Shown piece after piece: positions 45,235 to 62,115 of a stretch of 64,000 nt of DNA. Location: NCBI RefSeq assembly GCF_019972315.1, contig NZ_BLIZ01000001.1:1976513-2040512 (forward strand). The letters are read 5' to 3'. Both the position numbers and the translations under genes were made by a program. The notes beneath the pieces are model-generated. The model saw only the letters and a list, made by a program, of their open reading frames with translations, had not been told where the DNA came from and did not search any database. Each line of letters opens with the position of its first letter. Position 1 is the first letter of the stretch. The stretch comes from Geobacter sp. AOG1. Lineage in GTDB: Bacteria > Desulfobacterota > Desulfuromonadia > Geobacterales > Geobacteraceae.

Positions 45235-45864
45235 ATGATATTTGAAACCGTTGTGGTCGGTCCGCTGGAGGTGAACTGCTTCATCCTCGGCTGCGCGGAG
45301 ACCGGCGAGGGGGTGGTGGTCGATCCGGGGGCCGATGGTGAGCGGATCCTGGCCACCGTTAGCCGCCTTGGGCTGAAGATCAGCTACGTCATCAATACCC
45401 ACGGTCACTTCGACCATGTGGGGGGGAACAAGTCTGTCCTGGCTGCCACCGGTGCCCAGCTCTTTATCCACGAGAGTGACATACCCTTTCTTACTCGTGC
45501 CGCCGACGTTGCCGCCATGTACAACCTCGTTACGGAGAACTCCCCCCGTCCCGACCGGCTGCTGGAAGATGGGATGACCATCACGTTCGGTACTCACTCC
45601 ATCCGGGTGCTCCATACGCCGGGGCATACGCCGGGGGGATGCTGTCTCTATCTGGCAGAAGCGGGGATTGTCATTACGGGAGACACCCTGTTTGCCGATG
45701 GGGTGGGGAGGACCGATTTCCCCGGAAGTTCCCACCAGGCACTGATCGACAGCATCCGCGACCAGCTCATGACCCTGCCGGACGAGACCCGGGCCTATCC
45801 GGGACATGGCCCGGCCACCACCATCGGTCACGAACGGCGGCACAATCCGTACATTTCCCTCTGA
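45235..45864 (+). CDS. Metallo-beta-lactamase fold hydrolase (glyoxalase II-like)
   Basis: The 209-residue protein has the THGHFDHVGG motif near 54-63, the HTPGHTPGG motif near 123-131, ITGDTLFADGVGRTDFPG near 144-161, and a final metal His in YPGHGPATTIGHE near 186-198. Such hydrolases act on thioesters or similar substrates; substrate is unknown. GAGGAATTAG precedes ATG 45235. The gene is 10 bp before coaBC. Confidence 0.88.
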   Translation: MIFETVVVGPLEVNCFILGCAETGEGVVVDPGADGERILATVSRLGLKISYVINTHGHFDHVGGNKSVLAATGAQLFIHESDIPFLTRAADVAAMYNLVTENSPRPDRLLEDGMTITFGTHSIRVLHTPGHTPGGCCLYLAEAGIVITGDTLFADGVGRTDFPGSSHQALIDSIRDQLMTLPDETRAYPGHGPATTIGHERRHNPYISL

Positions 45865-45874
45865 CGGAGGCACT

Positions 45875-47080
45875 ATGCTGAAGGATAAAGTGGTAGTTCT
45901 CGGCGTTACCGGCGGGATCGCCGCCTACAAAGCGGTGGAGCTTCTCCGTCTGCTGACCAAGGCCGGCGCCACCGTCCATGTCATCATGACCCGGTCTGCC
46001 ACGGAGTTCGTGACCCCGCTCACGTTCCAGACCCTCTCCATGAATCCGGTCCATACGGAGCTGTTCAACCTCATCTCCGAGCAGGAGATCGGCCATATCT
46101 CCCTGGCCGACCGGGCGGACCTGCTCATCATCGCCCCGGCCACTGCCAACGTCATCGGCAAGCTGGCTCACGGCATTGCCGACGACATGCTCACCACCAC
46201 GGTAATGGCTACGAAAGCGCCGGTCCTCATCGCCCCGGCCATGAACGTCAACATGTACCAGAACCCTCTCTATCAGGAGAACGAGGTGCGTCTCGAGGCC
46301 CACGGCTACCTCTTCGTGGAGCCTGCCCGAGGGATGCTCGCCTGCGGTTGGGAGGGGGAGGGGAAGCTCCAGGAACCGTCAATCATTTTCGAGGCGGCCC
46401 TGGCAGCCCTGACTCCCAAGGACCTGGCGGGAGAGCGCGTGCTGGTGACGGCCGGACCGACCCGGGAGGAACTGGACCCGGTCCGCTTCATCAGCAACTA
46501 CTCCTCGGGCAAGATGGGGTATGCCATTGCCCGGGCGGCCAGTCGCCGTGGGGCAAAGGTCACCCTGGTGGCCGGCCCGACCTGCCTCGATGCCCCCTGG
46601 GGGATGGAGACCATTCCGGTCACCAGTGCCCGGGAGATGCGGGATGCGGTACTGGCGCGGTTCTCGTCCTCGTCCATCGTTATCAAGGCGGCGGCCGTGG
46701 CGGACTACCGCCCCGCCCGCCGGGCAACGGACAAGGTCAAGAAGACCGACCAGCCCGAAACCATCGAACTGGTGCGCAATCCCGATATCCTGGCAGAGCT
46801 GGGGACGAACAAGGGGGGACAGCTCCTGGTCGGCTTTGCCGCCGAGACCGAAAGCCTCCTGGAGAATGCCGGGAAGAAGCTGAACGAGAAGAACCTGGAT
46901 ATGGTTGTGGCCAATGATGTGGGGCAGGCCGGGGCTGGCTTCAACGTGGACACCAACATCGTCAGGCTCCTCTACCGGGATGGCCGGGTGGAAGAGCTTT
47001 CCCTCATGGGAAAGGACGCGCTGGCGGACGTGATTCTCGACCGGGTGATGGAAGCGAAAAAAGTGAAAAGCGAAAAGTGA
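45875..47080 (+). CDS. coaBC: Bifunctional phosphopantothenoylcysteine synthetase/decarboxylase
   Basis: CoaBC makes 4'-phosphopantetheine from phosphopantothenate and cysteine in CoA synthesis. The 401-residue fusion has the decarboxylase half (VTGGIAAYKAVELLR near 9-23, the His in the SxA-type motif ADLLIIAPATANVIGKLAHGIADD, and PAMNVNMYQNP near 123-133) and the synthetase half (TAGPTREELDPVRFISNYSSGKMG near 192-215, AAVADYRP, and KIKK-like KVKKTDQPETIEL). ACGGAGG precedes ATG 45875. Confidence 0.96.
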   Translation: MLKDKVVVLGVTGGIAAYKAVELLRLLTKAGATVHVIMTRSATEFVTPLTFQTLSMNPVHTELFNLISEQEIGHISLADRADLLIIAPATANVIGKLAHGIADDMLTTTVMATKAPVLIAPAMNVNMYQNPLYQENEVRLEAHGYLFVEPARGMLACGWEGEGKLQEPSIIFEAALAALTPKDLAGERVLVTAGPTREELDPVRFISNYSSGKMGYAIARAASRRGAKVTLVAGPTCLDAPWGMETIPVTSAREMRDAVLARFSSSSIVIKAAAVADYRPARRATDKVKKTDQPETIELVRNPDILAELGTNKGGQLLVGFAAETESLLENAGKKLNEKNLDMVVANDVGQAGAGFNVDTNIVRLLYRDGRVEELSLMGKDALADVILDRVMEAKKVKSEK

Positions 47081-49349: not shown

Positions 49350-49376
49350 AAGGGCATCCGTTGGATGCCCTTTTTT
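49350..49376 (+). terminator. Terminator after thioesterase gene
   Basis: GGGCATCC-GTT-GGATGCCC is followed by six T residues. It ends the UDG-thioesterase unit and separates it from the next gene. Confidence 0.85.
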
Positions 49377-49502
49377 CGTGCCGGGGAAAAATGTCCGTAG
49401 GTGCCTCCCGATGGGCACAATTCGGCCGATTTGTATTTCCCGGGAAGAATTGTAAGCTTACCTGTATCCATAGCTGTAGTAGTAAGCGATTAGGAGGTGA
49501 CC

Positions 49503-50858
49503 ATGGCAAAAGAGCGTTTGGTGATTATAGGCGGTGATGCGGCGGGAATGAGCGCCGCATCCCAGGCTAAACGCCGGAACACCGATCTGGAGATCGTCGT
49601 TTTTGAGAGGAGTCCGCACACCTCATTTTCTGCCTGAGGGATTCCCTACTATGTCGGCCGGGTTGTCGACAGGGAAGAGGCACTCGTTATCCGCACTCCG
49701 GAAAAGTTCCGGGCCCGGGATGGAATTGATGTCAGAATCCTCCACGAAGTTGAAGAGATCGATGCGGCGGCGGGAAAGGTGCGGGTACGTGACCTGCAAC
49801 GTGGCCGCGTGGCGTGGGAAGCCTATGATCAACTCGTGATAGCCACCGGCGCGGTGCCGATCTGCCCGGACCTTCCCGGCGCTGACGCCGTCGCCGTCTG
49901 CGGAGTGAATACCCTGCAGAGCGGTATCGAGCTGCGCCGAATCCTGGATGACGGAGGCGCAAAAAGGGGAGTTGTCGTGGGCGGGGGCTACATAGGCCTG
50001 GAGATGGCGGAAGCCCTGGTCAGGCGCGGCCTGGAGGTATCGCTGATAGACAGGTCTCCCGAGGTGATGGGAACCCTCGATGACGACATGGGGCAGCTGG
50101 TTTCCCAGGCACTGCGGGATTTTGGGGTGACCCTCTATCTGGAGGAAGCTCTCACGGGATTCGAGACAAAAGGGGGGAAAGTTACGGGAGTCGTGACCGA
50201 CAAGCGGAGCCTTCCGGTCGACATCGTGGTCCTCGGCCTCGGCGTGCGGCCCAATACCGCGCTTGCCGCGGCGGCGGGCGTTCCCCTCGGGGGAAAAGGC
50301 TCGATCCGGGTGAATGGACGGATGGAAACCGGCATGGCCGGCATCTGGGCGGCAGGGGATTGCGCTGAGTCGTTCCATCTGGTCAGTCGCAGACCCTTCT
50401 ACATAGCCCTCGGCACCGTCGCCAACCGCCAGGGGCGGGTAGCGGGCATCAATCTGGGAGGGGGGTATGCCACGTTTCCCGGGGTAGTGGGGACAGCGGT
50501 CACAAAAATCTGTCAGGTGGAAGTGGCCCGTACCGGGCTTCAGGAAAAGGAGCTCGGGGTGTTGGGCATCGAGTGGGAGAGCGCCGTAATCAAGAGCCGG
50601 ACCAAGGCGGGATACTTCCCCGGCGCAGGTGAGATAACGGTGAAGGTGCTGGCTGAAAGAGGCAGTGGCCGCCTGCTTGGAGGCCAGATTGTGGGGATGG
50701 AAGGTTCGGCCAAGCGGATAGACACCCTGGCGACCTGCCTTCATGCCGGCTTGACGGTGGAAGAGATGATCAATCTCGACCTCGGCTACGCGCCCCCCTT
50801 TTCACCGGTCTGGGACCCGGTCGTGACCGCTGCGCGTGAGGTGGTCAAGAAGCTTTAA
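49503..50858 (+). CDS. Predicted selenoprotein: CoA-disulfide reductase/NADH oxidase-like flavoprotein
   Basis: From ATG 49503 (ribosome site AGGAGG 5' of it) a single frame of 451 codons runs to 50858, with one in-frame TGA at 49635-49637 (codon 45). The translation on either side is conserved: VIIGGDAAGMSAASQAKRR (FAD motif), then HTSFSA-TGA-GIPYYV. Family members have a redox-active Cys at exactly this position (SFSACGIPYY-like). Downstream are VVVGGGYIGLEMAEALVRRG (NAD motif), IWAAGDCAE and the dimerisation domain. A SECIS-like hairpin follows the TGA. Selenocysteine is the best reading. The substrate may be a CoA disulfide, persulfide or oxygen. Confidence 0.9.
49635..49676 (+). promoter_or_regulatory. 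SECIS-like element with Sec TGA
   Basis: After TGA 49635-49637, TTCCC (49642-49646) pairs with GGGAA (49672-49676), and TGTCG (49652-49656) pairs with CGACA (49667-49671), with a one-sided TACTA bulge. The apical loop (49657-49666) contains GGGTT, giving the GGU typical of bacterial SECIS loops, about 24-26 bases after the TGA. Confidence 0.75.
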
Positions 50859-61515: not shown

Positions 61516-62115
61516 ATGAAAAAACCCTTGATCCTGGCATTAACGGTGTTCCTGATGACTATGTTGTGCGCCACATTGGGCACGGCTGCGGAACAGGTAG
61601 TGCCACGAGTGAGCATCGACATTTCGGGTCATCCCTTCAAGGGGCCGGCGAACGCGCCGGTTACTGTCGTGGTATTTTCAGACTACCTCTGACCGGTCTG
61701 CAAACGGCTCGAGCCGTCACTCCAGCAGGTGCTGGAGAGGTATCCCAAGGATGTGAAGCTGGTCCACAAGTTTCTTCCCCATTACCGCGAGTTCTCCCTT
61801 AAGGCCGCAATAGCCGCTTTGGCAGCGGACGACCAGAAGAAGTTCTGGGAATTTCACGACAAGCTGTTCGAAAATCAGGGGGGCCTCAAAGACGCGATGA
61901 TTACAGAGATCGCCGTATTACTGAAGTTGGATGTGGAACAGTTCAGGAAAAAAATGCAGGACCTCGCCATTGAAGAGCTGATCAACAGGGACATTAACGA
62001 CGCGAGAGAACTTGATATCCGTGGGACGCCGCAGGTCTACATTAACGGCAGACTTCTTAAGGACCGCTCCTTTCCCAGCTTCGTCGATGCCATCGACAAA
62101 GAGCTGAAGAAATAG
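61516..62115 (+). CDS. Predicted selenoprotein: DsbA-like thiol-disulfide oxidoreductase
   Basis: From ATG 61516 (AAGGAGG 7 bases upstream) one frame of 199 codons runs to 62115, broken only by TGA at 61690-61692 (codon 59). The context is TVVVFSDYL-TGA-PVCKRLEPSL. DsbA-family proteins have FSDYQCPVCKR here, so the TGA replaces the first Cys of CxxC, giving a Sec-Pro-Val-Cys motif. A signal peptide (about 1-23, ending TAAE) predicts a periplasmic place. Downstream are the DsbA helical insert and the cis-Pro loop IRGTPQVYING near 167-177. A SECIS-like hairpin follows the TGA. Confidence 0.9.
61690..61737 (+). promoter_or_regulatory. SECIS-like element with Sec TGA
   Basis: After TGA 61690-61692, CTCCAGC (61720-61726) pairs perfectly with GCTGGAG (61731-61737), with the loop AGGT, which contains the GGU typical of bacterial SECIS. 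The loop is 34-38 bases past the TGA, at the long edge of the usual range. An inner palindrome ACGGCTCGAGCCGT lies just before and could form an alternative stem. Confidence 0.65.

Follow-up and report, generated by a model that had tools for sequence, protein, structure and literature searches.

The window analysed here, a whole stretch of 64,000 bases, carries a gene whose single in-frame TGA most probably encodes selenocysteine (Sec) at the redox position of a CoA-disulfide reductase / NADH oxidase-like flavoprotein, a reading to which we give a probability of roughly 0.92. The earlier note on this DNA had proposed that Sec replaces the redox cysteine, and the proposal is supported by homologues, by a SECIS hairpin downstream of the TGA and by a complete Sec machinery in the genome; from these we infer that residue 45 is physically Sec. 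The gene adds a new member to a known selenoprotein family: selenoproteins of this kind were recorded in Geobacter some two decades ago, and selenoproteome tables already in print include the family, with an example from Geobacter.

The gene and its in-frame TGA

49503-50858, forward strand: predicted selenoprotein gene, CoA-disulfide reductase / NADH oxidase-like FAD flavoprotein, 451 residues with TGA read through as U, stop codon TAA
49635-49637, forward strand: predicted selenocysteine TGA, codon 45, at the redox Cys position of the family according to homologue and solved-structure alignments
49492-49499, forward strand: likely ribosome-binding site AGGAGGTG, 3 bases ahead of the ATG, read directly from the sequence

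The frame opens with the ATG at 49503, meets its sole TGA at 49635-49637 and closes with the TAA ending at 50858, in agreement with the 451 codons described before. The flanks reported for codon 45, HTSFSA upstream and GIPYYV downstream, are present as well, and the residue lies in a U-G-x-P motif, here UGIP. An ordinary ORF caller had been expected to split the gene, and a plain table-11 list does so, returning a 359-aa ORF in the same frame from GTG 49779, which makes this a clean case of a gene divided by a plain ORF list. Nine relatives were compared with the window gene, and dN was lower than dS upstream and downstream of the TGA in every case for which dS could be obtained (L128 and L135 gave no upstream dS value); for the relative L052, dN and dS were 0.043 and 0.80 upstream, and 0.025 and 0.29 downstream.

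Codon 45 across homologues

The order search matched 34 of 141 genomes at 1e-100 or better, and the phylum search 254 of 395 genomes at 1e-60; the homologous stretches fetched numbered 170, of which 154 were distinct. Codon 45 is TGA in 69 of the distinct stretches, TGC in 69 and TGT in 11, while five alignments stop short of the position. The Sec rows comprise 33 near forms and 36 distant forms, and the 69 Sec against 80 Cys forms do not represent a frequency, because a TGA reported by the phylum search was the ground for fetching 35 of the 36 distant rows. The position of the TGA was not selected on, and judged from the alignments the pattern is far beyond chance, because all 69 TGA homologues have it at codon 45 and nowhere else. 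No further in-frame TGA was found within the aligned stretches of the 154 homologues; in L139, a Cys row, codon 449 at the gene end is TAA.

That the family uses Cys at this position, as had been claimed, is supported by the 80 homologues with TGC or TGT and by three solved relatives, 6ruz, 3cgb and 3nta, which align over nearly the whole length and place the Cys of a C-G-L-P motif opposite codon 45.

Family assignment and proposed function

The read-through protein matches Pyr_redox_2, Pyr_redox and Pyr_redox_dim. When it was read with C for U, its best NCBIfam match was TIGR03385 (CoA-disulfide reductase, CoADR) with 436.9 bits; because this is below the curated cut-off of 578.8, the protein appears related to TIGR03385 at the family level and not at the equivalog level. 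Other CoADR equivalog models also stay below their cut-offs (NF007123, 418.8 against 458; NF010037, 257.2 against 394). The name 'CoA-disulfide reductase' thus denotes the closest family only, and CoADR activity is unproven. The best solved relatives, 6ruz (named NADH oxidase) and 3cgb, align over near full length. Two further codons are relevant to the assignment:

50613-50615, forward strand: codon of Tyr371, aligned with a CoADR active-site Tyr
50787-50789, forward strand: codon of Tyr429, aligned with the second CoADR active-site Tyr

We take these positions, drawing on the alignment with 3cgb, to be the two active-site tyrosines of CoADRs, as regards both catalytic role and numbering. The Tyr371 position is Tyr in all 33 near Sec forms, in 66 of the 80 Cys forms and in 15 of the 36 distant Sec forms; the Tyr429 position is Tyr in every near (33) and distant (36) Sec form and in 78 of the 80 Cys forms, the alignments of the other two falling short. 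The protein combines a single redox residue, Sec45, with both tyrosines, as CoADRs would have it. One active-site Cys is described for CoADRs in PMC10910545.

A rhodanese domain, as carried by CoADR-rhodanese fusions, was not detected in the Sec protein by Pfam at E 0.001. It is present at the C-terminus of a paralogue in the same genome (L207, G000:C1:607663-609006), which shares a CoADR-like flavoprotein core at about 40% identity and an aligned redox residue, but has Cys at that position.

As we picture it, SelB and tRNA-Sec would insert Sec at codon 45 under the direction of the hairpin described below, so that the whole protein of 451 residues is made, an NAD(P)H oxidoreductase which depends on FAD and belongs to the CoA-disulfide reductase / NADH oxidase branch with a single redox residue. 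By analogy with homologues, electrons would pass from NAD(P)H to FAD and on to Sec45, whose selenolate would attack the S-S bond of a small substrate; the resulting Se-S intermediate would then be resolved by the reduced flavin. The substrate would most likely be CoA disulfide, CoA persulfide or polysulfide, and its narrower identification as CoA disulfide or persulfide is put forward tentatively; no measured substrate of the Sec enzyme was found in the literature searched.

The same selenoprotein could instead be an NADH oxidase or peroxidase, with Sec45 reacting with oxygen or peroxide in a selenenic acid cycle and not with CoA disulfide. We consider this rather unlikely: although the Geobacter metallireducens protein was named 'NADH oxidase' in 2006 (PMC1794560), the best solved match 6ruz bears the same name and the score lies under the CoADR cut-offs, the score against the model of the H2O-forming NADH oxidase (NF046103) is further from the cut-off of that model (243.2 bits against 600) than the score against the CoADR model is from its own (437 against 579), and both CoADR tyrosine positions are present.

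Relation to catalogued selenoproteins

'NADH oxidase' is listed among eight selenoproteins of Geobacter metallireducens in PMC1794560; this protein resembles that of the window in belonging to a Geobacter relative, in family name and in its Sec form. The table of that article gives one selenoprotein of the family, whereas 69 distinct TGA-bearing stretches were collected here from genomes of the same phylum. A second catalogued protein, WP_011365774.1, is entered as 'FAD-dependent oxidoreductase (CoA-disulfide reductase, NADH oxidase)' in PMC9312934, where the entry gives no motif, and as 'FAD-dependent oxidoreductase (CoA-disulfide reductase)' with TIGR03385 and UGxP in PMC13188914; both articles cite Kryukov and Gladyshev 2004, The prokaryotic selenoproteome, as reference 12. 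It shares with the window protein the best-hit domain family, one Sec and the U-G-x-P motif (U-G-I-P in the window), but it is the gene of another species, and the window protein scores below the TIGR03385 cut-off.

A conserved hairpin downstream of the TGA

49652-49671, forward strand: putative SECIS hairpin, 7-bp stem (49652-49658 with 49665-49671) and loop CGGGUU (49659-49664), from covariation and synonymous constraint

The hairpin starts 14 bases past the UGA and holds a GGU at 49661-49663 inside its loop. A longer GGU-loop hairpin had been drawn at 49642-49676: a hairpin does exist there, but the conserved stem is the shorter one of 7 bp at 49652-49671, and the long outer stem is a trait of the window's own group (L022, L052, L053), its outer pairs being different or absent in other relatives. 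Folding energy alone is weak evidence for a SECIS. The stretch 49635-49680, whose fold had been suggested as a check, is not striking by energy (z -0.63, 45 of 200 shuffles as good), and 49642-49676 reached z -1.91 (8 of 200 as good); no Rfam family was found at gathering scores in the 64,000 bases.

From the TGA onward, 42 bases align without gaps across the 33 near Sec rows. All seven stem pairs are possible in 31 of these, against 3 of 64 Cys rows (L132, L133 and L136). Over 30 distinct Sec rows, 99.0% of the cells are paired; shuffles gave 93.6% (sd 0.9), and none of 500 came as high. Changes on both sides occur in 20 cells, compared with 7.6 in shuffles (sd 3.3; 0 of 500). Compensation is seen in two pairs, the outermost one changing from C-G to U-A and its inner neighbour from G-C to A-U. 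The number of pairs with double changes and that of further pair types showed no excess over the same 30 rows (369 and 500 of 500 shuffles as high, respectively).

Synonymous constraint was measured between the window and 15 Sec relatives, drawn from the 18 Sec rows with more than 78% identity, the others being the window itself, L126 (which starts at codon 4) and L065 (gapped). Where the residue was the same, codons 51-57 were identical in 89 of 92 comparisons (96.7%, the median being 59.7%), and this stretch ranked first of 438 codon windows. Covariation and synonymous constraint together place a SECIS a short way 3' of the UGA, and its location at 49652-49671 is supported by this sequence evidence.

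None of the 36 distant Sec forms has more than five of the seven near-stem pairs. Distant Sec forms (L170 and L172-L206, 37-46% identical) carry other types of post-UGA hairpin, about four by eye, e.g. TACATC-GGN-GATGTA and GTATC-TGGT-CAGATAC. Two Sec paralogues, L146 and L205, occur together in one genome (G405).

Selenocysteine machinery

The presence of selA, selB, selC and selD had been proposed as a check, and all four were found above cut-off in the genome of the window, a single contig of 3.68 Mb: selA with 614 bits, selB with 341 (376.5 with a neighbouring in-frame stretch), selD with 370 and tRNA-Sec with 74.7. The selD gene (L011, G000:C1:1793170-1794093) carries one in-frame TGA itself, and the selenophosphate synthetase of this genome is probably also a selenoprotein.

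Among the 33 genomes with near Sec forms, searched at E 1e-30 for selA and 1e-60 for selB, selA was found in 31 (not in G046 and G063) and selB in 30 (not in G043, G063 and G231, the last rated 93% complete). G046 is a Sec carrier (L027/L065) rated 100% complete, with selB and with selA not found at E 1e-30; its assembly comprises about 170 contigs, and gaps are the sole explanation that we can offer for the missing gene. The genomes with related Cys forms have selA in 12 of 13 cases and selB in 12 of 13, the exception being G132, rated 53% complete.

The presence of Cys at this position in 80 homologues would also suit a UGA decoded by read-through as Cys or as another standard residue. We hold this to be very improbable: the conserved SECIS-type hairpin tracks the TGA and is weakened or absent in the Cys forms, and the full set of selA, selB, selC and selD is present; taken together, these make Sec the economical assumption. 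That the TGA is a real stop or a sequencing error, leaving a pseudogene or a gene that starts downstream at 49779 as the table-11 ORF of 359 residues would have it, is just as improbable, and we reject it on account of the same TGA in 69 distinct homologous stretches and of dN below dS on both sides of it; the downstream ORF would moreover be missing 92 codons at the beginning of the gene, among them the FAD-binding start and the codon of the redox residue, and the Sec machinery is at hand.

Probable exchange between selenocysteine and cysteine

TGC stands at codon 45 in L132, L133 and L136, three close relatives at 81-83% identity. All seven stem pairs are possible in them, with three wobbles each against one or two in the Sec rows, and the 20-base stem-loop folds at -3.7 to -5.3 kcal/mol, compared with -5.9 to -9.5 kcal/mol in the 33 near Sec rows. 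By these measures the SECIS stem is weakened and not lost, and the remnant may be kept in part only through conservation of the protein sequence. Their genomes (G065, G131 and G109) retain selA and selB.

On trees built without codons 45-58, the three Cys forms were placed inside the Sec clade by both protein and DNA (the DNA tree also leaving out L065 and L145, which have gaps), and the partner of L133 is L137, a Sec form, with good support (95/94 on the protein tree, 100/99 on the DNA tree). A single Cys clade was rejected on the DNA tree (p-AU 0.00044) but not on the protein tree (p-AU 0.0685), and L132 and L136 as products of one event are compatible with the DNA tree (p 0.402); many forks of the trees are open. 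There were probably two or more Sec-to-Cys changes among these close relatives; the count is likely and not proven, because the single Cys clade is rejected on DNA and not quite on protein.

On a broader scale, the Sec/Cys label needs nine changes on a quick tree of 111 rows, four of them forced by starred branches; this tree came with a warning of long branches meeting, and three quarters of the Cys rows at 52-58% identity (L069-L124, mostly actinobacterial) and the rows aligned over less than about 400 residues had been dropped from it. The different post-UGA hairpins in other Sec clades suggest separate Sec gains. On balance we favour, with some reserve, a family in which Sec and Cys have replaced each other repeatedly, each by the other, with at least two Sec-to-Cys changes in the order of the window, where selA and selB are kept and the stem is weakened yet pairable, and with separate gains of Sec elsewhere in the phylum.

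In PMC1794560, 15 Sec-to-Cys events are reported in four families (FdhA 7, SelD 3, FrhD 3 and HesB-like 2), some of which leave remnant SECIS-like structures, and Table 1 of that article gives for NADH oxidase no Sec-to-Cys event, one Cys-to-Sec event and one loss. For other families, Sec-to-Cys changes that leave SECIS remnants have thus already been published, and what would be new, if our reading is true, is their occurrence in this family and the repeated pattern. The close relatives form a natural series, from TGA with a strong stem to TGC with a weakened stem and selA and selB kept, in which one could test directly, within a single enzyme, what is gained by having Sec and not Cys.

Genomic neighbourhood

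49350-49372, forward strand: terminator-like hairpin upstream of the gene, 10-bp stem followed by TTTT, a consensus match only

Three terminator-like sites were found against 1.9 expected in shuffles, and the same motif search found no promoter-like site; the gene may be transcribed on its own. In the loci of 16 relatives (L052-L067), several of them with short flanks, the upstream genes of the window were matched only in L052 and L053, which belong to its own group, and the downstream genes in none of the 16. No conserved neighbour pointing to the substrate was found in these loci. The nearby coaBC (45806-47080) was considered as evidence for a role in CoA metabolism and set aside, because the neighbours are unmatched outside the window's own group.

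A second selenoprotein candidate in the window

61516-62115, forward strand: second selenoprotein candidate, thioredoxin/DsbA-G-like, with UxxC (U-P-V-C) at the TGA 61690-61692 and a Thioredoxin_4 domain

When the window was scanned for in-frame TGA codons with coding-like sequence on either side, 49 places came up, including the TGA of codon 45, and by eye most of the others look like antisense shadows or ordinary ORF ends. One of the 49, the TGA at 61690-61692, lies in a frame whose best NCBIfam match, NF041057, is below its cut-off (92.4 against 190) and whose start resembles, by eye, a signal peptide. Behind the TGA comes a hairpin with AGGU as its loop (z -1.39 when the entire stretch is folded, 19 of 200 shuffles as good), and relatives were found at 1e-30 in 2 of 46 other genomes of the family, each with one TGA; as a predicted selenoprotein, this candidate looks real.
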